This document shows, piece by piece, positions 4,454 through 41,265 of a DNA stretch of 41,376 nucleotides. The stretch is from Terriglobales bacterium. GTDB lineage: Bacteria; Acidobacteriota; Terriglobia; Terriglobales; Acidobacteriaceae. The stretch covers positions 1-41,376 of the forward strand of contig DASTZZ010000103.1 in the NCBI GenBank assembly GCA_035764005.1. The letters are read 5' to 3'. Made by a program: the position numbers and the translations under genes. Positions within the stretch are counted from its first letter, which is position 1. Each line of letters starts with the position of its first letter. The notes beneath the pieces are model-generated. The model did not search any database and was not told the DNA's origin. It was given only the letters and a program-made list of their open reading frames with translations.

Positions 4454-4672
4454 GGGCTTCTGGCTTCTGGCGTCTGGCTTCTGGCTACACCAAAAGCAAC
4501 ACCAAAACACGGCACGGATTTCACGGATGCCACGGATTACACGGATCAGAAGCGTGATGAAGCGACCCTGAAAGGTTCATCCGTGTGATCCGTGTGCGAC
4601 AGCATGCGCGTAATCCCTCGGCTTTGGTGTGGCTGTTAGCCGGAAGCCAGTAGCCAGCGGCCAGAAGCCTCT
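4454..4672. repeat. Two-layer inverted repeat: 7-nt-period outer arms, 9-nt-period inner arms
   Basis: The left outer arm repeats a 7-mer (CTTCTGG, CTTCTGG, CGTCTGG, CTTCTGG) and the right outer arm is its inverted counterpart (CCGGAAG, CCAGTAG, CCAGCGG, CCAGAAG). Both sides then have an ACACCAAA / TTTGGTGT step. Inside, the left arm repeats a 9-mer (ACGGATTTC, ACGGATGCC, ACGGATTAC, ACGGAT), mirrored on the right by ATCCGTGTGATCCGTGTG. The element starts directly after the ADOP stop codon and ends four bases before the stop of the convergent small gene, so it could serve as a bidirectional transcription barrier. Confidence 0.85.
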
Positions 4673-4675
4673 TCC

Positions 4676-4873
4676 TCACCCTTTCCCCGGCGGCGGCAAA
4701 CGCTTCAGCGTCTCATCCAGCTTGAGAAAGCTTTTCACGCCGGCATTGCGTAGCGCTTTCACCAGCCGATGCATGGAGACATTCTTCGAATCCATGTCCT
4801 GGTCTGCGACGGAACTAAGGTATTCATAGTCTTCGTTGTAAAGCCAAAGGACTGTTCTGCGTTTGCGGGTCAT
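4676..4873 (-). CDS. Small hypothetical protein, possibly ribbon-helix-helix-like
   Basis: A 65-aa basic protein beginning MTRKRRTVLWLYNEDYEYL and ending KRLPPPGKG. I chose the ATG at 4873 because the 48 residues upstream in the same frame are low-complexity and show no conserved character, whereas the sequence from here on looks like a compact fold. A short strand-like segment (RRTVLWLY) followed by two predicted helices (NEDYEYLSSVAD, VSMHRLVKALRNAG) resembles a ribbon-helix-helix DNA-binding protein. This is only a fold-level impression. No clear Shine-Dalgarno is visible. The gene is isolated and converges with the ADOP gene across a hairpin element. It could be a chance frame. Confidence 0.45.
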   Translation of the reverse strand: MTRKRRTVLWLYNEDYEYLSSVADQDMDSKNVSMHRLVKALRNAGVKSFLKLDETLKRLPPPGKG

Positions 4874-5324
4874 GCGATGTGCTCTTGCGCCGGGAGCGGG
4901 GGAAACAGCGAACCGTGGGGCTGGGTCGAGAGCCGTGTATTTAGACACGTCTCTGGTTATAGTTTGAGAGCCGCGGGCAGCGCGACTCTCCAGTAACGAA
5001 GTGGGACCAATCGTCATAGTTTTGTGACCAGCAGTGGCTCAGCGGGGCCGCTCGCGACGGCCGCAACACACTCCAGGAAGTTACTCGACGGTGCGATGAC
5101 GAAGTGACGCGATCACGCATATCGTCTGCATTGCGTCCTGCCGCGAACGGTTCCGCAAAGCTACTGCTTACTCCTGATTACTTGACTTGAGCAGAAGCAA
5201 GCTGCGTGCCAATGTGAGCGCGTCAGAGTTCCCTCTGAATGCGCAACAGCGTTTCGCTGTTTGGAAAACGCCTGTTTCCCGAAATGGCAAAGGTTGGAAT
5301 TCAGGTGCTCAGAAAGAGAACCCC
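4874..5324. other. Gene-free stretch
   Basis: About 450 bases without a convincing gene on either strand. Short frames here lack ribosome binding sites and family-like sequence. It presumably carries the promoter of the small minus-strand gene ending at 4676, but I see no strong sigma-70 boxes. The next 445 bases are an inverted-repeat element. Confidence 0.5.
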
Positions 5325-5769
5325 GCAATCGGCATTCGGCACTCAGCACTCGGCTAAAAACAACAACAAAACACGACACGGATCACACGGACGCTTCGCG
5401 CACGGATTACACGAAAAAGGCAAGAAGCGAAACTGCAGACTGCGCTCTTTCAGCCCAGAGTTCCAAATTCTCTGAGTGCATAAATCGCCTCTGGCAAGGA
5501 AGATGAGTCTCGGACACATTGCATTTGCTGAGCCGAGTGCCGACTGCCAGTCGCCGCCTTCTCAGTGATTCCATTTTGGAACTTGTATCCGCTTGAGGAC
5601 ACGCCGGTTCGACAGTTCAGGTGTTTACATGTCCGGTGGATCGATGCCTTGACGTTATGACAAATACTTCTTCCGAGTGATCCGTGAGCGAAGCATCCGT
5701 GTGATCCGTGTCGTGTTTTGCTTTTGCAGTTGGTTTAAGCCGAGTGCTGAGTGCCGAGTGCCGACTGCC
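5325..5769. repeat. Long inverted repeat (about 90-nt arms, 260-nt centre), 7-nt-period outer and 9-nt-period inner words
   Basis: The left arm, 5325-5413, reads outward to inward: a 7-nt-period word (CAATCGG, CATTCGG, CACTCAG, CACTCGG), an A-rich step, AAAACACGACACGGATCACA, then ACGG(A) words around GCTTCGCGC. The right arm, 5673-5769, is its inverted copy (CGAAGCATCCGTGTGATCCG, CGTGTTTTGCTTTTG, GGTTTAAGCC, then GCCGAGT, GCTGAGT, GCCGAGT, GCCGACT). A third copy of the outer word lies in the centre near 5533-5551. The centre has no transposase or other gene. The right arm ends two bases before the stop codon of the convergent LMF gene. This resembles a non-autonomous mobile element or MITE-like structure, but terminal duplications are not evident. 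Confidence 0.8.
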
Positions 5770-5771
5770 CG

Positions 5772-11086: not shown

Positions 11087-11430
11087 GCATGAAAATGTCT
11101 TAAAGCTGTCGACGCTAAGTGCTTCCTGGCCGCCACGATGAAAGCCCAGTTCCAACTTTGTCTCCAGAAGATGCATTCCACAGTGAGATCAGAAATTCGT
11201 TCCTCTTTTCGCTTAAATCTTCCAAAAGGCGAGTCTCACCACTAGTTCTACCGGCAAAAATTCACACGGTCCTTTCCTCTAAGTGCAAATTTTTCTCTCT
11301 GGATACCTTGTGGAAAACAGGAATGTTCCTGCGCATTCAGCAACTTACAAGTTGGCCGGATAACTGCAGCGATAGTCGTGCTGTTTGGAGGCTGAGCTTG
11401 TTCCAGGAAAGTCCGAGATCCCTCGACATC
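11087..11430. other. Non-coding stretch upstream of the PilZ gene
   Basis: The frame of the PilZ gene stays open upward to 11119, but the translated sequence there is not domain-like, so I treat it as leader. It may hold the PilZ-gene promoter. No structured RNA was recognised. Confidence 0.45.
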
Positions 11431-11757
11431 ATGCGGCATCACCTGCCCGAGCAGCGCCGGGAATCCCGGCTGCACAACCCGCTGTCGGCGACCGTTTCCC
11501 CCATCAATCAGCCTAACGAGCTGCAAGTCGCCGCATTGCGCGATATGAATACCCTGGGAGCGTTCTTTTACAGCGAGATGCAGGCGGAAATCGGTGAAGG
11601 TCTGTCCCTGCAATTGGTTCTGCCTGACTCCGGCGATGGTCGCCAACTGAAGATCTCATGCGAAGGCGAAGTCGTTCGCGTCGAGCCTGGATATGACGGA
11701 GTGGCCAGCGGATTTGCCGTCCGGTTCAGCCGCTACGACATTTCCTGGGTGCACTAA
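11431..11757 (+). CDS. PilZ-domain protein (putative c-di-GMP receptor)
   Basis: A 108-aa stand-alone PilZ-like domain starting MRHHLPEQRRESRLHNP. The RxxxR motif is R9-R13 (RRESR). The second PilZ motif, normally DxSxxG, appears as DMNTLGAFF, with Asn in place of Ser. The domain ends with GVASGFAVRFSRYD, the usual GxAVxF closing strand. PilZ domains bind cyclic di-GMP and alter motility, polysaccharide synthesis or secretion; here binding is plausible but not certain given the Ser-to-Asn change. I prefer ATG 11431 over the open frame from 11119 because the preceding 104 residues are not domain-like. The Shine-Dalgarno is weak. No partner gene is adjacent. Confidence 0.75.
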   Translation: MRHHLPEQRRESRLHNPLSATVSPINQPNELQVAALRDMNTLGAFFYSEMQAEIGEGLSLQLVLPDSGDGRQLKISCEGEVVRVEPGYDGVASGFAVRFSRYDISWVH

Positions 11758-11760
11758 AGA

Positions 11761-11909
11761 AATTTCGTGATTTCCTGATTTCGCGATTTATTGAGTCTCC
11801 GCTCGTCCAGCCTCTTGGTCCCCGGCCCTGATTCAGTCCGCATACGTATTCATTGCCAGTCTGGTGCGCGAAGCGATTCCAATCGCGAAATCACGAAATT
11901 ACGAATTAC
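11761..11909. repeat. Inverted repeat with 8-nt-period arms (TTTCGTGA word)
   Basis: The left arm (11763-11794) repeats an 8-mer: TTTCGTGA, TTTCCTGA, TTTCGCGA, TTTATTGA. The right arm (about 11880-11909) is the inverted version: TCGCGAAA, TCACGAAA, TTACGAAT. About 90 bases separate them. It starts four bases after the PilZ stop codon and lies about 100 bases before the Met/His-rich protein gene. Confidence 0.8.
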
Positions 11910-14005: not shown

Positions 14006-14174
14006 AAGCTGCTGGCTGCTAGCTTCTAGCTGCTAGCTTCTGTTGTTACAACGCGGAGTTCCGGCTTCCAGCCAGTTCTGCCAAAGACGTGAAATCCGCG
14101 GCGAAGCATCCGCGCAATCGGTGCGGTTTTGATTTTGGTTTAGCCAGTAGCTAGCAGCTAGTAGCCAGCAGCTT
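14006..14174. repeat. Inverted repeat with 7-nt-period arms (GCTGCTA word) and shared inner scaffold
   Basis: The left arm 14008-14041 repeats a 7-mer (GCTGCTG, GCTGCTA, GCTTCTA, GCTGCTA). The right arm 14143-14174 is its inverse (AGCCAGT, AGCTAGC, AGCTAGT, AGCCAGC). The inner right side, GAAGCATCCGCGCAATCGG then GCGGTTTTGATTTTGGTTTA, matches the inner scaffold of the 5673-5769 arm, although the outer words differ. The right arm ends four bases before the acyP start codon, so it occupies the place of the ribosome binding site. Confidence 0.82.
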
Positions 14175-14454: not shown

Positions 14455-15024
14455 ATGAGCCCCTCTCCCGGAAGGTCCACGTCAAAGTCGCAACCAATCA
14501 ACTGCGATCATCTCAAGAAGCTGATCCGCGAAGTTCCTGATTTTCCTAAACCGGGAATTCTCTTTTATGACATCACAACGCTGCTCAAAGACAAGGTCGG
14601 CTTTGCCACGCTGATCGATGCACTCTCAGCGCACTACATGGAGAAAGACATCGATCTCGTTTTGGGAATCGAGGCGCGGGGCTTCATTTTCGGCCCAGCT
14701 CTGGCTTATCGACTGAATGCTGGCTTCGTGCCAGTCCGCAAACCCAAGAAGCTGCCAGCCGAGACCGCAAAGGTGACATATCAGCTCGAATACGGCAGCG
14801 ACTCGCTCGAGATGCACAAAGACGCAGTCCGCCGCGGCCAGCGCGTGATCATCGTAGATGATCTTCTTGCTACCGGCGGAACCTGCGCTGCGACGATTCA
14901 ACTCGTAAAATCGTTAGGCGGCAACATCGCGGGCTTGGCGTTTGTAGTCGAGCTCGATTTCCTCAATGGCCGCGAGAAGCTGAAGGAATACGACGTCTTC
15001 TCGTTGCTGCATTACAGCTCCTGA
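14455..15024 (+). CDS. apt: Adenine phosphoribosyltransferase
   Basis: Apt salvages adenine with PRPP to give AMP in the cytoplasm. The protein (189 aa) shows [17 protein letters not shown] at the N-terminus, [25 protein letters not shown] and the PRPP-binding loop [13 protein letters not shown] (residues 131-143). It is longer than E. coli Apt mainly by about 10 N-terminal residues. ATG 14455 directly follows the acyP stop; an AAGGAG box inside the acyP 3' end (about 14441-14446) gives good spacing and indicates translational coupling. The C-terminus [10 protein letters not shown] is typical. Confidence 0.96.
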
Positions 15025-31006: not shown

Positions 31007-31045
31007 AGCATTTTCAGAGTTAGTGCAGCCCCAAAAAGGGAAACC

Positions 31046-31095: not shown

Positions 31096-31192
31096 TATTT
31101 AGGGAGCCACAGCAACTAAGAAACTGCTATAGCTGTCCCGATAAGGGAAGAGTCGTGCAAAACGTGCTTCGCTGCAATGCTATGGGCATTCC

Positions 31193-32065
31193 CTATTTGG
31201 AACTACCGGTTCCGAGTGACAGAACGCGGAGCGCTCCAGCTGCGATGCGCACCTCGCATGAGGTCTCGCAGACGAACTCTCCATCCGCATAGATGTTCGC
31301 TGGGGGGCTGCTCTTAATGCGCACGCTCGTCATACGCATAAAGTGAACTTCCGGCAGGCCAAGATGAGTTCCACGAAGCAAGGAAAGCGATGCGCGCGCC
31401 AGTCTCGTCTTCGTCATGGCTTCGGCGAGAATGCAATCGAATTGGCTATCGTCGAGGCTCGCATCTGGGGCGATCCGTAGACCTCCGCCGAACGAGGGAG
31501 TATTGGCGATGGTAAAGAGGCATGCAGCTTGCTCGATCCTCTCAGCCAGGCCGACGTCACCGGCGGTAAGGGTCAGTTCCAATTTGGGATTCATGAGTAT
31601 CCCATTCATCGCGGCAATCAGATATCCGCCACGGGCGCGCAGCCATCGCGGCATACGATTCGCAAACTCGCCTGCAGCGGCGTCAAGGCCGATCCCGGCG
31701 GTGCAGCAGAATGGCGTTTCCTTGCCGGCGGAATCCGTGATGATGCCGATGTCGATCTGCCTGATTGCGGCATTCCCGTTGACGAAATCGCGCGCGAGAG
31801 TTGTCGCGGCAGCAGCGGAACGAATTCCAAGAGCGCGCGCCAGATCGTTGCCGCTTCCACAGGGCACGACGAGTACCGGCTTCGACGAGCGCGCCAATTC
31901 GGGAAGAAAGCGATGGATGGTTCCATCGCCGCCCAGAACGATAAAGAGACTCACATCATCGATGCTCGTGAAAGCTCTGGAAGCATGAATAGTGAGTCCA
32001 GTAGAACGCAGAAGTCGAAGATCGCTATCGCGGGCACCCGGACCGAGAATTGCGTGCGCGATCAT
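31193..32065 (-). CDS. Diacylglycerol/lipid kinase family protein (YegS/DgkB-like)
   Basis: A 290-aa enzyme with the DAGK catalytic fold: nucleotide-binding LGGDGTI (GGDGT at 45-49), VPCGSGNDLARALG (68-81), and the C-terminal beta-sandwich with CTAGIGLDAAAGEFAN, FTIANTPSFGGGLRIAPDAS and ANIYADGEFV. Members phosphorylate lipids such as diacylglycerol; substrate specificity cannot be read here, and undecaprenol or sphingosine are alternatives. The N-terminus is short (no long extension before LGPGARDSD), so a few residues may be missing compared with the usual 295-310. ATG 32065 has no Shine-Dalgarno. It lies 56 bases past the terminator of the TPR lipoprotein gene. Confidence 0.92.
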   Translation of the reverse strand: MIAHAILGPGARDSDLRLLRSTGLTIHASRAFTSIDDVSLFIVLGGDGTIHRFLPELARSSKPVLVVPCGSGNDLARALGIRSAAAATTLARDFVNGNAAIRQIDIGIITDSAGKETPFCCTAGIGLDAAAGEFANRMPRWLRARGGYLIAAMNGILMNPKLELTLTAGDVGLAERIEQAACLFTIANTPSFGGGLRIAPDASLDDSQFDCILAEAMTKTRLARASLSLLRGTHLGLPEVHFMRMTSVRIKSSPPANIYADGEFVCETSCEVRIAAGALRVLSLGTGSSK

Positions 32066-32120
32066 GGTTCTACAGTGATCAGACTACGTGTGTGCGGTGG
32101 CGCCCGGTTCGAGTTGCCGC

Positions 32121-32153
32121 AAAAGGAAAACCCGGATTCTGTCAATCCGGGTT
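32121..32153 (-). terminator. Rho-independent terminator of the exb/TPR cluster
   Basis: On the minus strand a perfect 10-bp stem AACCCGGATT / AATCCGGGTT (plus-strand 32129-32138 and 32144-32153, 5-base loop) is followed by TTCCTTTT. It lies 26 bases after the TPR lipoprotein stop codon. Confidence 0.9.
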
Positions 32154-32178
32154 CTCGGTGATGAATAGCTTTTTCAGA

Positions 32179-33036
32179 TTACTGTGTGCCGCCCGATTTT
32201 GGCTGATCGAGGACGATGCCGCCTGGGCCTTGCTGTTTTTCGGCTTTGGCCTTCTTGGTTTCCATGGTCTTCTTGACCCAGTCGTCGGCAGTGGCAAGAT
32301 CTTGTTTACGTGCTTCGGGATCACCACACTCGAGATCGGCCTTCTCGCGGAAAAGCAGGTTCAGGTATGCCATCGCGTCGTCATAGTCTTTACGCAAATT
32401 GATAGCTTTATTCAGGTCGTCGATGCCTTCCTGCACTTCCTGCTGGTTCTTCGATTGGATATCGGCGCAGAGCTTTTTGTCTTTGATTGGCTCGTCCGCT
32501 TTAATTCCGGCAGCGGTCTTTGCATCCATGCGCCGCTTGTAAGCTTCGGTCCAATCAATGACGGCAACTGAGTAGTAGGCTTCAGGATCGCTGGGATCGG
32601 CCTGCAAGACTTTCTCGTGATACGACTTTGCCTCTTCCAGATCCTGCAGCTTGTCCTCAGGCTTGGTCGCACCGCTGGCCATGTTGAAGTAAAGAGAAGC
32701 GATCCCTTTCAGACTGTTGATGTTGTTCGGATCCTTCTCGAGGAGCTTTTTGAATTCGTCGATCGCCTGGTTGCAGTTGCGAGTGTTCTCAGGAGTATCG
32801 ACGCCAGGAACGCATTGCTGCGCATACGCGGTAGCGAGATAAAGGCCGGCCACGGAAAGGTTCGGATCGAGATTTACCGCATTCTTGAAGTGTTCGATAG
32901 CAGCGTCATACTGTGCGCCTCGATACGACTGGACGCCCTTGTTGAGCTGATCTCGCGCTCTGAGCTTGTCACATCCCACCCCGGTCAGTGACGCCAGCGC
33001 GGCGAGCAATGCCAGGAAACGTGCGCTTCTGTTCAT
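32179..33036 (-). CDS. TPR-repeat lipoprotein
   Basis: A 285-aa lipoprotein; signal sequence MNRSARFLALLAALASLTG, then VGC with Cys22 lipidated. It carries tetratricopeptide repeats: one near residues 28-60 (LNKGVQSYRGAQYDAAIEHF), another near 90-125 (AIDEFKKLLEKDPNNINSLK), one near 135-170 (YHEKVLQADPSDPEAYYSVA) and a degenerate one near 205-240 (LNKAINLRKDYDDAMAYLNL). The C-terminus is charged (ETKKAKAEKQQGPGG). ATG 33036, with an AAGGAC-like box, replaces a longer frame from 33138 that runs through an inverted repeat. It is the last gene after tonB-exbB-exbD-exbD and may form part of a TonB/Tol-type envelope complex; this is inferred from position. Confidence 0.9.
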   Translation of the reverse strand: MNRSARFLALLAALASLTGVGCDKLRARDQLNKGVQSYRGAQYDAAIEHFKNAVNLDPNLSVAGLYLATAYAQQCVPGVDTPENTRNCNQAIDEFKKLLEKDPNNINSLKGIASLYFNMASGATKPEDKLQDLEEAKSYHEKVLQADPSDPEAYYSVAVIDWTEAYKRRMDAKTAAGIKADEPIKDKKLCADIQSKNQQEVQEGIDDLNKAINLRKDYDDAMAYLNLLFREKADLECGDPEARKQDLATADDWVKKTMETKKAKAEKQQGPGGIVLDQPKSGGTQ

Positions 33037-33118
33037 GAAAGTTTGTCCTTGCCAGTACGGCAAAAAATTTCGTGCTGATGAAATTACAGCATTGTACAAG
33101 GTGAATCGACGCAGCGGA

Positions 33119-33222
33119 GAATCGGGTGATCGGGTCATCGGGTGAAGTAAGACCCAAAGCTCAAGTCACCGCATTTACTTCACCCGATGACTCGATCACC
33201 CGAGGGCCCGATCACCCGATTC
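33119..33222. repeat. Inverted repeat with 8-nt-period arms (ATCGGGTG word)
   Basis: The left arm 33119-33150 repeats ATCGGGTG, ATCGGGTC, ATCGGGTG, then AAGTAA. The right arm 33175-33222 mirrors it: TTACTT, CACCCGAT, GACTCGAT, CACCCGAG, GGCCCGAT, CACCCGAT. It fills the exbD-to-TPR gap and ends two bases before the exbD stop codon. The same word family occurs at 41134-41265. Confidence 0.88.
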
Positions 33223-33224
33223 TT

Positions 33225-33668
33225 CTACTGTCCTGCTTCGATCTTCGCCGTCATCAACCCAACCTTATCTACACCGGACGCGTGCGCAATATCGATGACC
33301 TGCGCTACGTCCGAGAACGGCACTTCATCGTCGCCTCTCACGAACATTACGCGTTCGGCGCGGGTCTTGAATATGTCAGTGAGTCGCGTCTGCAAGTCGT
33401 TCCAACCCACATCGTCCTGGTTGATTTTCAACGTCGGACGCTGCCCAGGAACACCCTGATTCACGGAAACCACGATGGTGCGATCGTTCGGTTCCTGCTG
33501 CTTCTGTTTGTCCTTCGGAGGCTGCGGAACGAGCGCGTCGAGTCCGCGCGGCGTGAGCGGAGTGATGACCATGAAGATGATCAGCAGCACCAGCAAAACG
33601 TCGATGAGCGGGGTTACGTTGATGCTTGCGCTGGGGCCACCACCGGAGCCCCCCGTTGTCATTGCCAT
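33225..33668 (-). CDS. exbD: ExbD/TolR biopolymer transport protein (second copy)
   Basis: A 147-aa inner-membrane protein with a short cytoplasmic N-terminus (GGSGGGPSA), one transmembrane helix INVTPLIDVLLVLLIIFMVI with the conserved functional Asp (TPLID), and a periplasmic domain ending DVAQVIDIAHASGVDKVGLM. ExbD forms the proton-driven stator with ExbB that powers TonB. It lies 41 bases after the first exbD gene, with GAGG before ATG 33668. Two adjacent ExbD paralogues that differ in the periplasmic part (this one has a Pro/Lys/Gln-rich linker, PQPPKDKQKQQEPN) suggest a hetero-oligomeric stator. Confidence 0.95.
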   Translation of the reverse strand: MAMTTGGSGGGPSASINVTPLIDVLLVLLIIFMVITPLTPRGLDALVPQPPKDKQKQQEPNDRTIVVSVNQGVPGQRPTLKINQDDVGWNDLQTRLTDIFKTRAERVMFVRGDDEVPFSDVAQVIDIAHASGVDKVGLMTAKIEAGQ

Positions 33669-33709
33669 ATTGGAATCCTCTATATTCCCGCCTACGTGCG
33701 GGAGCTAAG

Positions 33710-34171
33710 TTACTCGCCGCCGGCGGTTGTCTTGGCTGGCTGGTCCGCCAGCGGACGCTTCTGCTCGGTGAGCAGGCCCAACTGATCGACTCCAGCCGAA
33801 CGAACGTTATCCACTACCGAGACCACAGTTCCGTACTTCGCGCGGGCGTCAGCCTTCACGTAAACGCGCTTATCGGTCTTGTTGGCCAGACGGTCGCGAA
33901 CTTTATCGCTAAGCTGGTCGGCGCCCATCTGATCGTTGTTCAGGTAGATCTTGTTGTCGCGAGTAATTGCGATCAGGATTGCGTCTTCTTTATCCGCATC
34001 CGGCATTTGCTCCGGATTATTGGTCTGTGCCAGCTCCACGCTGTGACCTTTCTGCAGCATGGGCGTGATGACCATGAAGATGATCAGCAGAACCAGCATC
34101 ACGTCGACCATCGGCGTGACGTTGATGTCGGAGTTGACCTTCTTGCCTTCGTCTCTTTTCACTAAAGACAT
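33710..34171 (-). CDS. exbD: ExbD/TolR biopolymer transport protein (first copy)
   Basis: A 153-aa ExbD: N-terminal MSLVKRDEGKKVNSD, transmembrane INVTPMVDVMLVLLIIFMVI with the conserved Asp, periplasmic domain with DAILIAITRDNKIYLNNDQM and VVSVVDNVRSAGVDQLGLLT. Role as for the neighbouring paralogue: proton-driven energisation of TonB with ExbB. It follows exbB by 126 bases, a gap containing stem-loops. The C-terminal tail (RPLADQPAKTTAGGE) is not conserved. Confidence 0.95.
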   Translation of the reverse strand: MSLVKRDEGKKVNSDINVTPMVDVMLVLLIIFMVITPMLQKGHSVELAQTNNPEQMPDADKEDAILIAITRDNKIYLNNDQMGADQLSDKVRDRLANKTDKRVYVKADARAKYGTVVSVVDNVRSAGVDQLGLLTEQKRPLADQPAKTTAGGE

Positions 34172-34191
34172 TGTGTTTGCCTATCTCTGTT

Positions 34192-34240
34192 GGACGCTCT
34201 GCTGCGTCCGGGATTCAGCCGAGGAGGAGCCTCCTTCGAC
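34192..34240 (-). promoter_or_regulatory. Tandem stem-loops in the exbB-exbD gap
   Basis: GGACGC-TCTGCT-GCGTCC (34192-34209) is a perfect 6-bp stem. Next to it CGAGGAGGAGCCTCCTTCG (34220-34238) is a near-perfect stem. A third word, GCCGAAGGAGGCG (about 34257), can pair alternatively with the CCTCCTTC arm. Such alternatives could attenuate exbD relative to exbB or stabilise the mRNA; inference only. Confidence 0.4.
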
Positions 34241-34297
34241 GTTCAGCGCGTTGCTGGCCGAAGGAGGCGTTGGCTACTCTCGAACTGCGTATAACAA

Positions 34298-35053
34298 TTA
34301 CCGACGTCCGCTGCGCTTCAGGAAGTAATCGATCAGCTCAGAGGACGAGTTATCCATCTCCACGTCGAAGGCTTCAACCTTATTGGTGAAGTAGTTGAAC
34401 ATCATGACGGCGGGGATGGCGACGAACAATCCGATAGCGGTCGTCACCAGCGCTTCCGAAATACCACCGGCGACTGCGCCGAGGCCGGAGGTCTTCTGCG
34501 CCGAGATCTGGCGGAAGGCGTTCAAAATACCGACCACGGTGCCGAACAGTCCGACGAACGGAGCCGTGGAACCGATGGTGGCGAGACCGCCGAGTCCGCG
34601 CTTCAGTTCGGCGTGAACGATGGCTTCGGCACGCTCGAGAGCGCGCTTGCTGGCTTCAATCTGCTCGCCAGGAATGTCGGTAGATTCACCGTGGGCCTTG
34701 AACTCCTGCAGACCAGCGGTGACGACCTTCGCCAGATGCGACTTCTTGTTGCGCTCGGCCACGCGGATAGCTTCGTCGATCTTGCCGTCGCGCAGTGCGC
34801 CGGCAACCTGCGGAGCAAACGAACGCGACTGCTTGCGCGCGGCGTTGAAGGCGATGTAGCGGTCGATCATCACACCAATCGACCACGCCGACATGATGAA
34901 GAGAATGATCACGACGATGCGCGCCAGCCAGCCCATCTGCTTCCACAGCGAGATCGGGTCCCACCCGATTTCGCCAGTATCAGTCTGGAGCCACATGGCC
35001 AGTACAGGCAGCTTGTAATACGCCACCGTTGCGAGAGTTGCCAGTTGAATCAC
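34298..35053 (-). CDS. exbB: ExbB/MotA/TolQ-type proton channel protein
   Basis: A 251-aa inner-membrane protein with three transmembrane segments: WLARIVVIILFIMSAWSIGV (about 42-61), then after a cytoplasmic loop the signature GSTAPFVGLFGTVVGILNAF (about 161-180) and ALVTTAIGLFVAIPAVMMFN (about 200-219). With ExbD it forms the pentameric stator that couples the proton gradient to TonB. The start is GTG 35053 with a strong AGGAGG about 10 bases upstream on the minus strand. A 380-base gap with perfect palindromes separates it from tonB, so it may have its own promoter there. Confidence 0.96.
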   Translation of the reverse strand: MIQLATLATVAYYKLPVLAMWLQTDTGEIGWDPISLWKQMGWLARIVVIILFIMSAWSIGVMIDRYIAFNAARKQSRSFAPQVAGALRDGKIDEAIRVAERNKKSHLAKVVTAGLQEFKAHGESTDIPGEQIEASKRALERAEAIVHAELKRGLGGLATIGSTAPFVGLFGTVVGILNAFRQISAQKTSGLGAVAGGISEALVTTAIGLFVAIPAVMMFNYFTNKVEAFDVEMDNSSSELIDYFLKRSGRR

Positions 35054-35314
35054 TTGAGTTAGTCCTCCTCAGAACTATGCGTTTCAGTGCGACGATGATT
35101 GTTGAACATCAAAGCCCGCAATATTTGCTTACAAAATTCGACTCCGTCCATGCCTTAGATGTTCCCGCGCGATCCGCTCGGAAGCGGCAATCGCACCACC
35201 AGAAAAATCTTTCAGTTAGTACCGAGTCGCTGATCAAGAACTCTCGATTCAAACACGCTCTCCAGCAGATGAGCAAAGCTGTGTCTGGTCGAGGGGAAAA
35301 ACAGAACAACACAG

Positions 35315-35336
35315 GGAGGGGCAGCTCTGCCCCTCC
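35315..35336. promoter_or_regulatory. Perfect 22-nt palindrome GGAGGGGCAG/CTGCCCCTCC
   Basis: The 10-bp arms 35315-35324 and 35327-35336 are separated only by CT. It lies in the tonB-exbB gap (35054-35433). No T-run follows closely on the minus strand, so it is not a clear terminator. It may be an mRNA stabiliser, attenuator or protein-binding site. Nothing else gene-like was found in 35054-35314. Confidence 0.6.
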
Positions 35337-35399
35337 AACCATCAGAAGCTCACATCGTGCATTCGGGTTTTCCGGAGAAGAACCCGAGCACCCAGCTTT

Positions 35400-35421
35400 C
35401 AGCAATCAGCGCTGATTGCTG
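35400..35421. repeat. Perfect 22-nt palindrome built on the TCAGC word
   Basis: CAGCAATCAGC (35400-35410) and GCTGATTGCTG (35411-35421) abut with no spacer and are perfect inverted copies. The 7-nt spacing of CAGC words (CAGCAAT, CAGC) matches the 36236-36366 element, of which this looks like a collapsed, spacer-less form. It lies 12 bases beyond the tonB stop codon. Confidence 0.7.
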
Positions 35422-35433
35422 ACTGCATGGTTA

Positions 35434-36162
35434 CTATCCACCGTTCAGCGTGAAATTCACCTGAATGGTGGTTTCCACTTCCACCGGCTCGCCGTTCAAA
35501 ATGTACGGCTTGTAGCGCCACTGCCGAACCGCGTCGATCGCGGATTGGTACAGCATCGGGGGTCCGCTTACCGCGTGCAGGTTCTGAATCGTTCCACCCT
35601 TGCTGATTTCAGCCTGCAGCACGACTTGGCCTTGAATGCGAGCCGTCTTGGCAATCGCTGGATACACCGGATTCGGTCCGGAAATCTTATTACCCGCGAC
35701 TACACCGGATGACACCCTTACCTTTTGTGGCGCGGCGACCTTCGGAGGAGGCAATGACGATCCAATAATTCCGCCAAGTACGCCGCCTGCTGCTCCACCA
35801 GCAACGCCGCCCGGAACTCCGCCTACTACGCCGATACTCGGCGGTGGGGCTTCGTCTTCCTTGAGCATTTCGACTTTTTTGGGAATCTTGGTTGGGGCGC
35901 GGAGCTGATTGTTGACAATTTCCGTCTGCACCTTCACCACATGTACCGGAGCTGCGGGCGGCGGTGGCGGCGGTGGCGGCGGTGGCGGCGGCGCAACCAG
36001 GAACGTCATGAGCTGCTGTTTCGGCAGCGCCTCCGTGTAGATGAGCGGGATCAGGACCAGAACACCAAGCAGCAGGATCTGCAAAGCGAATGACAAGAAA
36101 GTTGTCACTCCACGCTTGGTTTTGATTCGTCCCGAAGATTCGACCAGGCTGTCCTCAAACAT
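35434..36162 (-). CDS. tonB: Energy transducer TonB
   Basis: A 242-aa TonB: cytoplasmic N-terminus, transmembrane helix about residues 21-43 (TTFLSFALQILLLGVLVLIP), a periplasmic Pro-rich spacer with 12 consecutive prolines (about 58-69), a Gly-rich segment (GGVPGGVAGGAAGGVLGG) and the C-terminal TonB domain (about 165-242; NPVYPAIAKTARIQGQVVLQ, SAIDAVRQWRYKPYILNGEP, VNFTLNGG). TonB carries energy from ExbB/ExbD to outer-membrane receptors. ATG 36162 with GGAG at good spacing. The Pro12 codons come from a 9-nt repeat in the DNA, which could vary in length in frame. The gene lies downstream of secF with an inverted repeat between them. Confidence 0.96.
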   Translation of the reverse strand: MFEDSLVESSGRIKTKRGVTTFLSFALQILLLGVLVLIPLIYTEALPKQQLMTFLVAPPPPPPPPPPPPAAPVHVVKVQTEIVNNQLRAPTKIPKKVEMLKEDEAPPPSIGVVGGVPGGVAGGAAGGVLGGIIGSSLPPPKVAAPQKVRVSSGVVAGNKISGPNPVYPAIAKTARIQGQVVLQAEISKGGTIQNLHAVSGPPMLYQSAIDAVRQWRYKPYILNGEPVEVETTIQVNFTLNGG

Positions 36163-36235
36163 ACCTATCTCTCCAATAGGGCAATAGCTGATGTTTAGAC
36201 ACCGGGGACGATGATTTTGCTCCCGGGGGAGGAGC

Positions 36236-36366
36236 AGCCGTCAGCAGTCAGCTCTCAGCATTCAGCGAAACCGGCTTTCGCCCAGTTACAAGCATGAATC
36301 AGAATCGACCAAACCGCCTGCACAACCCGAATCAAAGCTGATTGCTGACGGCTGATCGCTAATTGC
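36236..36366. repeat. Inverted repeat with 7-nt-period arms (GTCAGCA word)
   Basis: The left arm (36236-36267) repeats CGTCAGC, AGTCAGC, TCTCAGC, ATTCAGC. The right arm (36337-36366) mirrors it: GCTGATT, GCTGACG, GCTGATC, GCTAATT. The element fills the secF-tonB gap and ends next to the secF stop codon. Confidence 0.85.
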
Positions 36367-36373
36367 TTCTTCC

Positions 36374-37609
36374 TCAGCTCCTCGTTCCCGTCCCCTGTAA
36401 CTTCCCTGTCCTCTGCGTTCCTCTTCGCGTGCTGGCTCCCGGCAACACTACTTTGCCAGTCTTCTTTAAGCGCCAATCCTGGTACGCGACCAGCATGGGG
36501 GCAGCTACAGCAATCGAAGAGTAAGTACCAATTAGGATGCCCACAACCAGGGCAAAGGAAAACCCGCGAAGAACCTCGCCGCCGAAAAGATACAGCGAGA
36601 GCACCGTCAGAAACGTCAGCCCTGAAGTCAGCACGGTTCGGCTCAGGGTCTGATTGATGCTGCGGTTAACGATCTCCGCCAGCGACTCACGCCGGAGCAG
36701 CTTCACGTTCTCCCGGATACGATCGAAGACGACGATGGTGTCGTTCATCGAATATCCGATCAGCGTAAGTATCGCGGCGATAACGGTAAGCGTTATCTCT
36801 TGATTCGTCAAGGAGAACGCGCCGATGGTGATCAAAGTATCGTGGAAGACCGCGACCACAGCGGCCACGCCATAGATCCACTCGAAGCGGAACGCGAGAT
36901 AAACCAGCATTCCCGCGAGCGAATAGAGCGTTGCCCATTCGGCCTGATGCGTCAGCTGCTTTCCTACTTGCGGACCGACGATCTGCACGCTACGCACGCC
37001 GAAACCAGAAGTGAAAGCTCCTTCTTTCAAGGAGGAGACTATCTGCGGCTGAATGACGCTGTTCAGGTCGTCGATTGAGCCGAGCACACCGGAGCGGGTC
37101 TTATCGCGGAAATCGGTGATCTGCCGCGCGATTGCGCCGTAGCGAGCGCCGGCATCGGTTCCCAAGTGGAGAGGATCTTTGTTCAGCAGGTAGTCGGAGA
37201 TTTGACTCGAACTGGAGTTATTCAGATCAAGCTTGCCTTGGTCACTAGTACCGCCGAAATACTTCTCCATCACCGCGACGATGGCCGCGCGTCCTCGATC
37301 AAGGGATTGCTCGCTGGTTTCCTTTTCGGGAAGGCTGATGATGACTTCGTTGGCGCCGGCGCCGCCGATGCTCTGAATCTTGAAGTCGTGATACCCCGCC
37401 GCATCGATGGAGCGACGAATCTTGCCGTCATCGACGCCATTGACGAACTTCACGTCAACCTGGGTACCGCCGCGGAAGTCAACGCCCCACGGAATACCGT
37501 GCCAGAAGATCAGCGAGATCAATCCCGCCACGCTGAATATCAAAGAAAAGCTGAGGAAGTACCACTTCTTCCCGAGAAAGTCGATGTTGGTGCTTTTAAA
37601 GAATTCCAA
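36374..37609 (-). CDS. secF: Protein translocase subunit SecF
   Basis: SecF with SecD uses the proton gradient to pull exported proteins across the inner membrane after SecYEG. About 411 aa: helix 1 near residues 17-37, large periplasmic domain with PWGVDFRGGTQVDVKF and the family VVGPQVG-type motif (VQIVGPQVGKQL), then five helices with VAVFHDTLITIGAF, IGYSMNDTIVVFDRIREN (conserved Asp) and SINQTLSRTVLTSGLTF. I place the start at TTG 37609 (LEFFKSTNIDFLGKKW is the usual SecF beginning; AAAGG lies 8 bases upstream). GTG 37639 and 37636 are alternatives but fall in an inverted-repeat arm. The last residues (RRGTQRTGKLQGTGTRS) are encoded by a CCCTGTAACTTCCCTGTCC repeat tract, so the tail seems to be a repeat-derived extension. 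Confidence 0.94.
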   Translation of the reverse strand: MEFFKSTNIDFLGKKWYFLSFSLIFSVAGLISLIFWHGIPWGVDFRGGTQVDVKFVNGVDDGKIRRSIDAAGYHDFKIQSIGGAGANEVIISLPEKETSEQSLDRGRAAIVAVMEKYFGGTSDQGKLDLNNSSSSQISDYLLNKDPLHLGTDAGARYGAIARQITDFRDKTRSGVLGSIDDLNSVIQPQIVSSLKEGAFTSGFGVRSVQIVGPQVGKQLTHQAEWATLYSLAGMLVYLAFRFEWIYGVAAVVAVFHDTLITIGAFSLTNQEITLTVIAAILTLIGYSMNDTIVVFDRIRENVKLLRRESLAEIVNRSINQTLSRTVLTSGLTFLTVLSLYLFGGEVLRGFSFALVVGILIGTYSSIAVAAPMLVAYQDWRLKKTGKVVLPGASTRRGTQRTGKLQGTGTRS

Positions 37610-37631
37610 TTTGTAACCTTTGAAAATCGTT

Positions 37632-37780
37632 TTCACCACGGAGACACGGAGTCACGGAGAAAAACAAAAAAAGGTGAAAGGCACTCCAGTCGACTTATTA
37701 ATCTGGCTCGACCATACCGAGTGGAACTTCGAGAGCCCACTCAAATGCCTTTCTCCGTGCCTCCGTGTCTCCGTGGTGAA
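37632..37780. repeat. Inverted repeat with 8-nt-period arms (CACGGAGA word) in the secD-secF gap
   Basis: Left arm 37632-37666: TTCAC, CACGGAGA, CACGGAGT, CACGGAGA. Right arm 37748-37780: TCTCCGTG, CCTCCGTG, TCTCCGTG, GTGAA. The arms are inverted copies around about 80 bases. The element makes the secD-secF gap about 175 bases, where these genes usually nearly touch. Confidence 0.88.
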
Positions 37781-37787
37781 TAAGCTT

Positions 37788-39413
37788 CTAAATACTCAAC
37801 GCTTCCCCGCGTTCCTTCCGATTCAAGATCGCATCGAAGATCACGCGCGAGACGAACACGGCGGTGAACAGGTTTGCCAGCAGACCGAAGGTCAGGGTGG
37901 TGGCAAATCCGCGCACTGGGCCGGTTCCAAAAATGAACAGAATGAATGCCGAAACAATTGTCGTCACGTGCGTATCGACGATCGTCAGCCACGCATGTGC
38001 GAATCCCTGATCGACCGCCGCAGCCGGAGCCTTCCCCGCGCGGAGCTCTTCGCGGATGCGCTCAAAGATCAGCACGTTCGAGTCGACGCCCATACCGATA
38101 GTCAGAATCACACCGGCAATTCCCGGCAGCGTAAGTGACGCATGGCTGAATCCGAGAAATCCGAGCAAAATGACCAGGTTCAGCAACAGTGCCAAATCGG
38201 CATTGATGCCCGCGCCGCGGTAATAAATCAGCATGAAGATGAGCACGGCTGCCATGCCGACAACTGCAGCGAGCACGCCTGCTCGAATCGAATCGGCCCC
38301 GAGCGACGGACCTACGGTTTCTTCATTCAGATAATGAATGCTCGCGGGCAGCGCGCCGGAGCGCAGCATCATGGAGAGATCATGCGTCTGCTCTTCGGTA
38401 AACGCGCCGGCTATGCGAACGCTATCCCGAATTGGCTCCTGAATATTGGCAACCTCACGGACGCGATTATCAAGCACGATGGCTAGCTTGTCGTTCACGT
38501 GAGCACTGGTAAACGCAAAGAAACGGCGTCCCCCATCGTTGGAAAGATTGAACTGCACATCCGGACGACCATTTTCGTCGCGGCTCGGCTGGGCATCGCG
38601 AATGTCGCTGCCCGCAACCGCGGAAGTGCGGGACACAACCCAATACTCCGGCTGTCCGCCACCCTGACCGGTTGCGCCGGGCAGGATTACCTCATCCGGA
38701 GGAATGCTGCCACCATTCGCCTGTAACGCAGATTGCTCGTCAGGATACGGGCCGCCCATTGACTGCCGGATCTCCAGCATCGCCGTGGACTGAATCAGGT
38801 CTCTTACGCGGGCGGGGTCATCAACACCCGGCAGCTCTACGAGAATCTGATAGGCGCCCATCCCGTGCTCCTGGATAGTCGGCTCGGTCACGCCGAACTG
38901 ATCCACACGGTTGCGGATCGTCTCAATTGCCTGCTGAACAGCGCGCTGCTTAAGCGACGTGACTTCCGAGGGCTTCATCACGAACTGATAGGTATTGTTC
39001 GGGCCGCTCTGTAGTTCGTACTGTGGGAAGTTGTCGCTGACGGTTTCCCGCAGCGCGCCGATCTTGTCCGGAGGCACGCCTTTGATCTGCATGACCTCAG
39101 GGTGATTGACCGGATCAGGCTTAGTAATGTCGGGCGACGCGATCCCGGCTTTGCTCAGGTCATCTTTCAGTCCTGAAAGCGTGCGATCGGTATCGGCATT
39201 CACCGCCTCGTTCACAGCAACTTGCAGAATGAGGTGAGTACCGCCCTTGAGGTCGAGACCAAGGTGAATGTTCTCCTGGATCGCACCGAGAACGCCTTGT
39301 TGTTTCCAGGCATTAATGGCCTTCTCGGGATCGGTACCGAGAAAGACGCCGTAGACAAAGATCAGCAGCGTTCCGATGATCAGCAGGGTCTTTGAGAGAA
39401 GGTTTTTACGCAT
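37788..39413 (-). CDS. secD: Protein translocase subunit SecD
   Basis: SecD is the larger partner of SecF in proton-driven protein export. 541 aa: helix 1 (about 9-27), the P1 domain opening HLGLDLKGGTHLILQV, the P1 base TIRNRVDQFGVTEPTIQEHG, P4-like ILVELPGVDDPARVRDLIQS, then a C-terminal six-helix bundle containing LNLVILLGFLGFSHASLTLP, VILTIGMGVDSNVLIFERIR with the conserved Asp, and FGTGPVRGFATTLTFGLLAN. The Gly/Pro-rich stretch around residues 230-255 is an acidobacteria-like insertion. ATG 39413 directly follows the yajC stop codon (no gap), so translation is coupled. secF lies 178 bases downstream beyond an inverted repeat. Confidence 0.97.
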   Translation of the reverse strand: MRKNLLSKTLLIIGTLLIFVYGVFLGTDPEKAINAWKQQGVLGAIQENIHLGLDLKGGTHLILQVAVNEAVNADTDRTLSGLKDDLSKAGIASPDITKPDPVNHPEVMQIKGVPPDKIGALRETVSDNFPQYELQSGPNNTYQFVMKPSEVTSLKQRAVQQAIETIRNRVDQFGVTEPTIQEHGMGAYQILVELPGVDDPARVRDLIQSTAMLEIRQSMGGPYPDEQSALQANGGSIPPDEVILPGATGQGGGQPEYWVVSRTSAVAGSDIRDAQPSRDENGRPDVQFNLSNDGGRRFFAFTSAHVNDKLAIVLDNRVREVANIQEPIRDSVRIAGAFTEEQTHDLSMMLRSGALPASIHYLNEETVGPSLGADSIRAGVLAAVVGMAAVLIFMLIYYRGAGINADLALLLNLVILLGFLGFSHASLTLPGIAGVILTIGMGVDSNVLIFERIREELRAGKAPAAAVDQGFAHAWLTIVDTHVTTIVSAFILFIFGTGPVRGFATTLTFGLLANLFTAVFVSRVIFDAILNRKERGEALSI

Positions 39414-39725
39414 TTACTTTGCTTCTTCTGGATTCACGAGCGCGGTGACGGCCGCTCGGGCCACTTCAATCCGCAGGTTGTCGGGAGGGACGCGCAGTTG
39501 TACGGCGTCGTCCCTGAGAGAGATCACGGTGCCGCGAATGCCGCCGCTGGTGACAACTTTGTCGCCATTTTTCAGGCTCGCCAGCATTGCCTGCCACTTC
39601 TTCTGCTTCTTCTGCTGCGGCATGATCAGCATGAAATAAAAGATCGCGAAGATCGCGATCAGCGGGAGCAGGCCGAAGATGGCAGACCCCGACGACTGCG
39701 CCAACAGGCTGGGAATTGCGTGCAT
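39414..39725 (-). CDS. yajC: Preprotein translocase subunit YajC
   Basis: A small single-pass membrane protein that associates with SecDF. 103 aa from ATG 39725; a TTG three codons upstream (39734) is also possible. The helix is about residues 15-36 (AIFGLLPLIAIFAIFYFMLI), followed by the family signature MPQQKKQKKWQAMLASLKNG, then GDKVVTSGGIRGTVISLRDD. The C-terminal part is the usual hydrophilic YajC tail. The secD ATG follows the stop codon with no gap. Confidence 0.95.
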   Translation of the reverse strand: MHAIPSLLAQSSGSAIFGLLPLIAIFAIFYFMLIMPQQKKQKKWQAMLASLKNGDKVVTSGGIRGTVISLRDDAVQLRVPPDNLRIEVARAAVTALVNPEEAK

Positions 39726-39766
39726 TTGAATCAAGGCTTCGCTCTGAAACCAGGGGGAGATTTTCT

Positions 39767-39870
39767 AATTGAGTAATTTGGTAATTGGGTAATTGCCAGA
39801 GGCACTTGCAACTACCGGCCTCGCCATGCCGCGCGTTACGAACTTACCCGATTACTCAATTACCCAATTC
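39767..39870. repeat. Inverted repeat with 8-nt-period arms (GGGTAATT word)
   Basis: Left arm 39767-39795: GAGTAATT, TGGTAATT, GGGTAATT. Right arm 39844-39870: ACCCGATT, ACTCAATT, ACCCAATT. They are inverted copies around about 50 bases. The element lies between tgt and yajC on the minus strand. Confidence 0.87.
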
Positions 39871-39896
39871 TGGGGCGCGGCTAGAGGAGAGCCTGC

Positions 39897-41075
39897 TTAG
39901 CTCGATTGCTCTGAAACCTGCGCGGCCTCAGATCGCTTCGCTCGCAACTCTCCAGTTTTAATAGCATGACGGACACTGCGCATCGTGTCAAGGTAATGCG
40001 CGAGGTTGTGGATGGTGTTCAGCACCGCAGCCAGCGCCTCTCCAGAGACAAACAAATGACGGAGATACGCTCGCGTGTAACGCGAGCAAACCATGCAGTC
40101 ACATGCAGGATCCGGCGGCCGCTGATCGCGGGCAAAACGCGCATTCTTGATATTCATCCGTCCCTCTGAGGTGAACAGCAGACCATGCCGCGCAGCTCGT
40201 GTGGGCAGCACGCAGTCCATCATGTCGACGCCCATCGCGGCGTACTCGACGATCTCCTCCGGATAGCCGACGCCCATCACGTACCGCGGCTTGTCTTTGG
40301 GGAGAAGAGGAAGCGTGCTCTCGATGATCTCGCGCGTGAGCTCCCGCGGCTCACCCACGCTGAGCCCGCCGATGGCGTAACCAGGAAAGTCTAGCTCCAG
40401 CAGACGCTCGGCGGATTCGCGGCGCAGATCGGGATACATGCCCCCCTGAACAATCCCGAAAAGGGACTGGGTTTCGGAGATCTGTGCTAAAGATGCAGCA
40501 TGCCGCGTCTCTACTAGTGCTCGCCAAGGGACGTCGGCTTTATGAACTTCAAAATATTCCTTGCTCCGCCGCGCCCAGCGCGACGTCATCTCCATGGACT
40601 CCTTCGCGCGTTCCCTCGTCGCAGGGTGCTCCGTGCATTCGTCGAATGCCATGATGATGTCGGCGCCAAGAGCAATTTGGATTTCCATCGAACGCTCGGG
40701 AGTGAAGAAGTGGCTCGACCCATCAAGATGCGAGCGGAACTCGACGCCGCGCTCGCTGACCTTGCGCAACTCGTTAAGGCTGAAAACCTGGAATCCGCCG
40801 GAGTCGGTAAGAATGCTGCGCTCCCAAGACATGAACCGGTGCAGCCCGCCCATCTGGCAAATCGCCTCGTGTCCAGGACGCAAATACAGGTGATAGGTGT
40901 TCCCGAGAAGAATTTGTACGCCGAGTTCTTCCAGAATGTGCTGTGGCACACCTTTGACCGATGCGAGAGTGCCAACCGGCATGAACACCGGAGTCTCGAT
41001 TTCGCCGTGGGGTGTAGCGATGCGGCCGAGGCGGGCGGGACCGTCTGCGGCATTGATCGAGAAGGAGAGAGGCAT
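39897..41075 (-). CDS. tgt: Queuine/preQ1 tRNA-guanine transglycosylase
   Basis: Tgt swaps guanine 34 in GUN-anticodon tRNAs for preQ1, the step before QueA. 392 aa, start ATG 41075 (beginning MPLSFSINAADGPARLG); a longer frame from 41147 reads through a repeat and was rejected. Signatures: TPVFMPVGTLASVKGVP, LLGNTYHLYLRPG, SILTDSGGFQVFS with general-base Asp91, FGIVQGGMYPDLR, GYAIGGLSVGE, RYVMGVGYPEEIVEYAAMGV, then MMDCVLPTRAARHG with the nucleophilic Asp region, and zinc ligands CDCMVC plus His in YLRHL. It heads tgt-yajC-secD-secF, a common conserved order; queA is 38 kb away on the plus strand. Confidence 0.97.
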   Translation of the reverse strand: MPLSFSINAADGPARLGRIATPHGEIETPVFMPVGTLASVKGVPQHILEELGVQILLGNTYHLYLRPGHEAICQMGGLHRFMSWERSILTDSGGFQVFSLNELRKVSERGVEFRSHLDGSSHFFTPERSMEIQIALGADIIMAFDECTEHPATRERAKESMEMTSRWARRSKEYFEVHKADVPWRALVETRHAASLAQISETQSLFGIVQGGMYPDLRRESAERLLELDFPGYAIGGLSVGEPRELTREIIESTLPLLPKDKPRYVMGVGYPEEIVEYAAMGVDMMDCVLPTRAARHGLLFTSEGRMNIKNARFARDQRPPDPACDCMVCSRYTRAYLRHLFVSGEALAAVLNTIHNLAHYLDTMRSVRHAIKTGELRAKRSEAAQVSEQSS

Positions 41076-41133
41076 GGAATCGGGTGACCTCCACCCCAGC
41101 GGTCGCAAACCCAGCGCCGGCTGGGGACCCCGG

Positions 41134-41265
41134 GGTGATCGGGCCATCGGGTGATCGGGTGAAGTGAGGACAAAAGCGCGCTCGCTCCTGCCGGACTAGG
41201 TCGATGAACCGATGATTTTCTCGATTTTACTTGGCCCGATGGCCCGATCACCCGATGACCCGATT
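41134..41265. repeat. Inverted repeat with 8-nt-period arms (ATCGGGTG word, second copy)
   Basis: Left arm 41134-41169: GTGATCGG, GCCATCGG, GTGATCGG, GTGAAG. Right arm 41229-41265: TTGGCCCGAT, GGCCCGAT, CACCCGAT, GACCCGAT. The word is the same as in the 33119-33222 element, 8 kb away. It separates tgt from the DinB-like gene. Confidence 0.87.

Follow-up and report, generated by a model that had tools for sequence, protein, structure and literature searches.

The DNA analyzed here, called the window, is the 41,376-nucleotide (nt) contig DASTZZ010000103.1 of a Terriglobales bacterium (family Acidobacteriaceae; assembly GCA_035764005.1), designated C103 among the 131 contigs of a 5.1 Mb genome. 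Its open reading frames (ORFs) include genes for a MacB/FtsX-like protein, a PilZ-domain protein and EF-P, a Y1_Tnp (RAYT-like) gene, and a tgt-yajC-secD-secF cluster together with tonB. The subject of this report is a set of hairpins in gaps adjoining these and other protein-coding ORFs, in which each arm is itself a tandem array of a short word; the flanking genes belong to no obvious common class. An earlier note on this DNA had named nine gaps with paired arms of period 7 or 8, at 4454, 5325, 11761, 14006, 33119, 36236, 37632, 39767, and 41134. Convergent arrays are present at all nine, and these positions serve as element names below.

Under a uniform threshold (ungapped score 15, loop at most 260), seven of the ten inverted pairs in the window had arms of period 7 or 8. 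Sixty block-dinucleotide shuffles of the window gave a mean of 0.07 inverted pairs, none of them periodic. Elements 39767 and 5325 fall under this threshold, yet we judge them real: the arms of the former are 81% complementary (39766-39792 versus 39836-39862), and in the latter an array, a linker, and a CACGGAT layer (5325-5416) pair with 5671-5768 across 98 columns at 84%. A partner for 5325 near 5532 was also considered but is a weak match, and the array at 5739-5769 fits better. The scan for period-7/8 inverted pairs that the earlier note had proposed at genome scale, applied to 839,376 bases of the window genome (about one-sixth of it), found 106 inverted pairs, 32 of them periodic (14 of period 7, 11 of period 8, and 7 of period 9) and 29 of these 32 intergenic. 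Five shuffles of this sample yielded 0-4 inverted pairs each and no periodic one. Counts thus lie far above those of randomized sequence in both window and genome sample, contrary to the refutation that the note had envisaged. Intergenic tandem arrays in the same sample (Tandem Repeats Finder score ≥36) numbered 30, 33, 21, and 11 for periods 7, 8, 9, and 10, and none had a period below 7.

Relatives gathered via protein search are Acidobacteriales/Acidobacteriaceae genomes, mostly metagenome bins. In 95 of their loci around secD (1.56 Mb), 22 of 55 inverted pairs were periodic, 20 of the 22 with period 6-9 and 14 of the 22 intergenic; one shuffle of this set produced two inverted pairs, neither periodic. 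We regard the observation of periodic hairpins with exchangeable words in the window as confirmed. The constant architecture recurs in the window genome and, mostly with other words, in other genomes. Some soil Acidobacteria carry many intergenic hairpins in which each arm repeats a word of 6 to 9 letters in tandem.

By reading the arms, we assigned the window elements to word groups: RGCTNCT (4454 and 14006), NTCRGCA (5325 and 36236, and also a short pair at 35400), a GTRATYNN-like group (11761, 33119, 39767, and 41134), and CACGGAGN (37632). The units ATTTCGTG and ATCGGGTG are grouped together because congeners mix both within one arm, and the arms of 39767 mix GTAATTGG with GTAATCGG units. 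The nine words thus fall into about four groups and are less unrelated than the earlier note had stated. Among the looser cases listed in the earlier note, 15135 is indeed a single arm, an ACAGGNN array with no partner found within 14900-15250, and 35400 is indeed spacer-less. The case at 1799 does have a 15-nt unit, in 2.6 copies on one side, but its period is neither 7 nor 8. The inverted pair in the surrounding segment (1792-1952) is rich in GC, contains AACCGGCGG, and is similar to one found next to a Y1 gene in locus L189.

Arrays mostly comprise 2-5 units per arm. Across 17 elements with the word ATCGGG, one letter accounts for 96%-98% of unit positions 1-6 (the units counted were those with no more than one mismatch in this core), T or C predominates at position 7, and position 8 holds G or C. 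Mismatches are phase-locked, with a mean z of 2.56 in 23 window-genome elements, 2.52 in 21 elements of genome G178, 2.33 in 11 elements of other loci, and 1.0 in the four elements of G011. The words have fixed and free positions within the unit. The inner end of ATCGGG arms is a TGAAGTRAAACC-like joint, the outer start of period-8 CACGGAG arms is TTCAC in window-genome copies, and ATCGGG arms are slightly more similar within one element than between elements (p = 0.036). Some elements are layered, having a linker and a second, inner array; these include 4454 and 5325 in the window, loci L008 and L190, and the EF-P gaps of congeners G001 and G003. Near the EF-P gap, locus L204 has one hairpin side with three consecutive arrays of period 7, 6, and about 9 (by eye).

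A strict scan of orientation with nine word patterns in window-genome, congener, and some viral loci, seven of which yielded opposite-strand pairs, found 42 of 42 such pairs facing inward, plus seven same-strand neighbors; because polarity and word groups were defined on the elements first seen, each group contributes one non-independent element to this count. Close CACGGAG pairs were inward in 9 of 9 cases among the matches listed. A looser scan gave 16 inward pairs and one of opposite polarity for ATCGGG, and 3 and 4 elements for CACGGAG and GATTTCG, numbers too small to test. The 5-letter core TCGGC with one mismatch returned 152 pairs, 87 of one polarity and 65 of the other, which we took as background and did not use.

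The order of variant units is not mirrored between arms (mean z 0.02; 28 informative of 42 pairs), and therefore the elements do not preserve exact pairing at their free positions. A first version of this comparison had counted 421 of 535 mirrored cells against 286 expected. We set it aside because the pairs had been picked for complementarity, which biases the count, and rejected mirrored arms after the strict test. Predicted RNA hairpins are nonetheless strong in six elements (z -3.2 to -10.8), and in two of these 1 of 200 shuffles folded as well. Inward arms are richer in G than in C in the window genome (21 to 9), G178 (26 to 5), and G011 (5 to 3), and not in other loci (7 to 10); being weaker in G011 and missing elsewhere, this bias is no general rule.

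Of 149 Acidobacteriota genomes, six contain triples of ATCGGG and six contain triples of CACGGAG; four genomes (G000, G011, G131, and G178) have both. In the window's family, both words are found in 4 of 15 genomes and neither in 11 of 15. Periodic hairpins reach 38 per Mb of sample in the window genome, 85 in G178, and 40 in G011; in a combined 271 kb sample of word-poor genomes, G094, G151, and G196 had none and G187 had one. The words of G178 are mostly unlike those of the window genome. Given these triple counts and hairpin densities, a genome within this family tends to be either rich or very poor in words. That some genera of the family have them and sampled others nearly lack them would allow the missing factor to be sought through gene presence. 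In environmental viral contigs (L220-L270), ATCGGG and CACGGAG words appear in 19 and 33 stretches, with close word pairs inward in 15 of 15 cases among the matches listed.

Within a genome, it is the arms that recur. The sequence ATCGGGTGATCGGGT, with one mismatch allowed, has 102 matches in the window genome versus none for the reversed pattern, and CACGGAGNCACGGAG has 48 versus one. Another copy was found in the sampled genome part for 29 of 32 left arms in the window genome and 30 of 31 in G178; for loops, the corresponding figures are 6 of 31 and 6 of 24, and several recurring loops are words extending into the loop or other repeats. A comparison of 40 loops with each other identified a single homologous pair. 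Of eight window loops compared with the window genome and five congener genomes, five lacked a second match at E 0.001, and matches to the remaining three (4454, 5325, and 14006) were confined to word-bearing layers, among the matches listed. Transposition of whole elements, tried against these comparisons, found the apices mostly not shared. The recurrent part can extend inward: the linker and inner array of 4454 (about 4488-4550) are dispersed through the genome, and linkers with CACGGAT-type layers make up most or all of at least 41 non-self matches in the window genome and at least 34 in congeners G001, G003, and G005, at 75%-100% identity among the matches listed. In the window genome, 59 of 86 arms found their best match in an arm belonging to a different element, and in G178 this was so for 34 of 62.

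Comparison of orthologous gaps, which the earlier note had advised, revealed different words or no element at the same gap in congeners and other genera. Our operon-gap survey drew on 101 loci, with measured gaps numbering 53 for secD-secF (G005 counted twice), 38 for tgt-yajC, and 88 for secF-tonB; periodic pairs were present in 8, 3, and 1 of these, respectively. Besides the window, the eight secD-secF cases comprise seven relatives whose words are different, among them GTNATYNR in L086, CGTCGTTCG in L087, AGCTNCT in L114, GGGAACAA in L131, and GTTTCAAG in L091 and L158. In the same gap, by a comparison made partly by eye, the window genome and G003 both have CACGGAG arms with different loops, the G003 pair being a perfect 13-mer, L155 (a contig whose SecD match equals that of G002) has an RGCTNCC-like array pair, and G005 has an imperfect array; no element was found there in G001 or G004. 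The tgt-yajC gap holds ATTTCGTG/ATCGGGTG arrays in G001, G003, and G004, reduced in G005, and the secF-tonB gap has no inverted pair in G001, G003, G004, or G005. Before a TPR gene, the word is ATCGGG in G000, G002, G003, and G005 and NTCRGCA in G001 and G004 (by reading). RGCTNCT units in the EF-P gap number about 4.6 in G000, 3 in G001, and 8 in G003 (by eye), with none in G002 and remnants in G004; a search for the EF-P gene in G005 did not find it. Upstream of tgt, ATCGGG is common to G000, G001, G003, and G004, and the loop is clearly shared by G003 and G004 only. A PilZ search for the ortholog beside 11761 gave only paralogs in congeners (at most 46%). G178 and G131 share about 72 kb in broken synteny (blocks 75%-85% identical), and here a looser threshold detected seven and three periodic hairpins, none coinciding in position, with two of the seven outside aligned gaps open to comparison. 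Where orthologous gaps hold different words, gain, loss, and exchange become directly countable.

Counts relative to genes are rough because gene calls used a simple longest-ORF method. With this in mind, 25 of the 32 elements could be assigned to a gap between two called genes, and in 18 of these the genes run in tandem, an arrangement found at 179 of the 327 gaps of at least 100 nt. Twelve of the 18 tandem-gene elements begin within 16 nt of the upstream stop. Two window elements sit between genes of the tgt-yajC-secD-secF cluster, and none of 15 terminator-like sites (short GC stem plus T run) in 28000-41376, a segment with six elements, lies in an element.

Table 1. Arms and arrays of the periodic elements in the window (element names as in the text; z, z score of the predicted RNA fold)
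Feature	Positions	Strand	Remarks
4454, left arm, GGCTTCT (RGCTNCT), period 7	4455-4487	+	Period identity 0.88; pairs with 4637-4669; begins 1 nt past end of MacB/FtsX-like ORF 1997-4453
4454, inner layer	4513-4596	.	CACGGATTA array 4513-4546, convergent ATCCGTGTG array 4579-4596
4454, right arm	4637-4669	-	Score 20.5, loop 149
5325, left arm, NTCRGCA	5325-5416	+	Word array 5325-5355, linker, CACGGAT inner layer 5361-5416; pairs with 5671-5768
5325, right arm	5671-5769	-	Inner layer 5671-5726, word array 5739-5769; 98-column pairing
11761, left arm, ATTTCGTG, period 8	11762-11789	+	After PilZ-domain ORF 11119-11757
11761, right arm	11881-11905	-	Score 20, loop 92; z -4.8
14006, left arm, AGCTGCT/AGCTTCT (RGCTNCT), period 7	14006-14041	+	4 nt past EF-P ORF
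14006, right arm	14142-14174	-	Score 23, loop 103
Unpaired ACAGGNN array, period 7	15132-15164	-	No partner found in 14900-15250
33119, left arm, ATCGGGTG, period 8	33119-33150	+	Inner joint TGAAGTAA
33119, right arm	33175-33222	-	z -8.8
Short NTCRGCA pair without spacer	35399-35422	.	The 35400 case of the earlier note
36236, left arm, GTCAGCA (NTCRGCA), period 7	36232-36266	+	secF-tonB gap
36236, right arm	36336-36357	-	Score 17, loop 82; z -3.3
37632, left arm, CACGGAGN, period 8	37632-37662	+	secD-secF gap
37632, right arm	37750-37780	-	Score 28.5, loop 87; z -10.8
39767, left arm, GTAATTGG, period 8	39766-39795	+	tgt-yajC gap
39767, right arm	39836-39869	-	z -3.2
41134, left arm, ATCGGGTG, period 8	41133-41162	+	Upstream of tgt
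41134, right arm	41235-41264	-	z -7.2

The window also contains repeats of other kinds. A 23-nt tandem unit, GGGGTTAACGCCGTGGAAATnTn, is present in about 3.8 copies, together with a 22-nt unit present twice, at 29204-29303 and 29501-29543. Non-periodic inverted or related sequences (TGTCATTCCGAAC/GAGGAATCCCT and TGTCATCCTGAAGG/GAAGGATCT) occupy 534-670, about 15040, and 29738-29917, and pieces similar to them lie just inside some word arms.

A constant design combined with a word that differs by site and species points to a process that makes or spreads such hairpins. The elements have the same word in both arms, face inward, have mostly unique apices, are mainly intergenic, and are variable or missing among congeners. 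Our tentative preference is that they are dispersed non-coding palindromes akin to repetitive extragenic palindromes, whose arms spread out of a genomic pool and change gradually through slippage. The word of an arm would be drawn from a genome-specific vocabulary, and the propagated piece would be the arm itself (the array and, in some families, linker and inner second array), supplied by a genome-wide pool. At the replication fork, similar arms would most likely undergo strand switching or recombination and in this way spread; alternatively, an enzyme recognizing the constant letters of the word would spread them. Slippage would then shift unit number and order, the apex would be filler that diverges neutrally, and elements would persist because cells tolerate palindromes placed behind stop codons. 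The hairpins may also protect upstream mRNA. The claim that these elements do not descend from one sequence stands between different word groups; inside a group, arms related to one another are scattered over many sites.

Several points weigh against spread from a pool. An arm had its partner as strictly best match in 20 of 86 cases (with 7 ties) in the window genome and 28 of 62 in G178, a share exceeding the expectation of a pure pool, although it is inflated because well-paired elements were chosen. In 5325, the units follow a concordant order in the two arms, as they would in an inverted copy, and the single ATCGGG pair of opposite polarity is an exception to the inward rule. No clear target-site duplication was seen by eye at secD-secF or secF-tonB, where the flanks have diverged, and this analysis found no dedicated mover enzyme. 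Conservation of the arms could instead come from selection on a binding site. Most GGGAATC repeats of Xanthomonas are reported to have the same neighboring genes in both of two species (Rehm et al., 2015, PMC4692102), unlike the turnover described here.

Whole-unit transposition and binding-site selection remain serious rivals. In the former, whole hairpins resembling REPINs or miniature inverted-repeat transposable elements (MITEs) would be moved in trans by a transposase reading the word arms, and the copies at hand would be old, with diverged apices. The fixed inward polarity, the conserved inner joint, the tens of arrays for each word, and the sites without an element in relatives all fit this account, as does the higher number of Y1 genes in word-positive genomes (7-12 versus 0-7; p = 3e-4), which may be mere general repeat load. 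The Y1 genes themselves speak against it. We examined 34 Y1_Tnp genes (12 of 12 in the window genome, 9 of 9 in G178, 6 of 8 in G011, 5 of 12 in G131, and 2 of 10 in G004), and 26 of these are spanned by an inverted pair (9 of 12 in the window genome, and 17 of 22 in the other four); in these five genomes, none of the 26 pairs is periodic. The window's own gene (20201-20776, minus strand) lies between the arms of a non-periodic inverted GGGTGCCCCACTCTCGCGTG pair at 20145-20197 and 20808-20857. On these grounds, we reject Y1/RAYT proteins as movers of the word arms and, with them, the Y1/HUH-type activity that the earlier note had suggested; this result is also why we favor spread from a genomic pool. 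Furthermore, no recent whole copies exist among the elements tested, and each of many unrelated words would need its own reader. We consider whole-unit transposition possible, if on balance doubtful.

Selection of the arms as sites is less probable, and we rate it as unlikely. Here a protein would bind the constant part of the word in DNA or RNA and need inward arrays, with a neutral apex and lineage-specific preferences. Variation limited to fixed unit positions, unit order that is not mirrored (so that exact pairing is not what is kept), and the roughly called proximity to upstream stops agree with such a protein. The presence of different words, or of no element, at the same gap in congeners does not, and neither does the number of words in one genome or the variety of the flanking genes.

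Replication errors without dispersal appear improbable. A chance word would expand by slippage, and a template switch would yield the inverted arm. The unit numbers in the EF-P gap, the concordant arms of 5325, and the wealth of period 7-9 arrays in gaps are what this would produce. It leaves unexplained why related arms occur at many loci, why polarity is fixed without mirrored order, and why intergenic arrays of period below 7 are absent from the window-genome sample. Slippage plus inversion, the other generating process named in the earlier note, is therefore weak as the sole cause: the unit order and the 59 of 86 arms that match another element better both speak against it.

A more speculative idea, which we regard as a long shot, is that a trans-acting activity writes inward word arrays into gaps by telomerase-like copying from a short template in some Acidobacteria, and perhaps in Xanthomonas and Nostoc. 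Such an activity would explain the constant period, the phase-locked variable letters, and the sharing of words with unique apices, as well as the contrast between genomes with many words at once and relatives with hardly any. G-quadruplex elements, as proposed for the GGGAATC repeats (Rehm et al., 2015, PMC4692102), are very improbable here: ATCGGGNN arms have GGG in each unit and some ACAGGNN arrays also have regular G runs, but AGCTNCT, NTCRGCA, ATTTCGTG, and GTAATTGG arms share the design without a three-G run per unit, and most words contradict the proposal. Ordinary intrinsic terminators or chance hairpins, despite the placement at gene ends, can be dismissed with similar assurance, as all 15 terminator-like sites in 28000-41376 lie outside the elements, two elements separate genes of one cluster, and shuffles yield no periodic pair.

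Cyanobacterial STRR repeats represent earlier work on short tandem repeats. The closest match in architecture is the GGGAATC family of Xanthomonas, whose degenerate 7-nt arrays mostly have four units, are intergenic and near stop codons, and form 70 and 75 convergent pairs; unit positions 1-4 and 6 are conserved and the others freer, and the arrays are mostly transcribed, are read as G-quadruplexes, and are reported without an assigned role (Rehm et al., 2015, PMC4692102). As there, two degenerate tandem arrays face each other in one gap in our elements. In contrast to the one word studied in Xanthomonas, our elements use many words, of period 7, 8, and 9 and mostly without G runs, and different words occupy the same gap. 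The earlier note's statement that it knew of no described mechanism holds as far as we searched; the architecture itself has this precedent. In Nostoc, the P6b stem of the trnL intron consists of degenerate 7-nt repeats (TDNGATT or NNTGAGT), the word class has been repeatedly replaced, and unit number changes on one or both stem sides (Kaasalainen et al., 2015, PMC4476775). Our elements share the stem of degenerate repeats and the replacement of a word class at one site, but occur at many intergenic sites rather than at one site with two words in a group I intron.

REPINs, which are bounded by conserved 16-mers with a linked RAYT gene (Bertels and Rainey, 2011, PMC3116915), are likewise multi-copy, extragenic, hairpin-forming inverted doublets with conserved ends and fixed polarity. 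The ends described here are instead tandem words, and none of the 34 Y1 genes examined is flanked by periodic arms. Unlike MITEs, copies are not homologous over their whole length, and apices are mostly unique. The TAACTGA heptamers of Beggiatoaceae also form intergenic arrays, mostly beside start codons (MacGregor, 2015, PMC4679880); that report concerns one word in direct arrays (169 sets, with one inverted case), whereas we find inverted pairs of many words. Further prior work was considered (PMC3733652, PMC6006769, and PMC4060949). In the open-licence literature, no description of a many-word class in Acidobacteria appeared among the matches listed, and the string CACGGAGACACGGAG has no occurrence in open-licence PubMed Central articles. 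The class described here is a many-word form of a kind already known for single words. This suggests that the isolated reports of heptamer arrays in Xanthomonas, Nostoc, and Beggiatoaceae may each describe one word of a broader class that combines a constant design with an open vocabulary.

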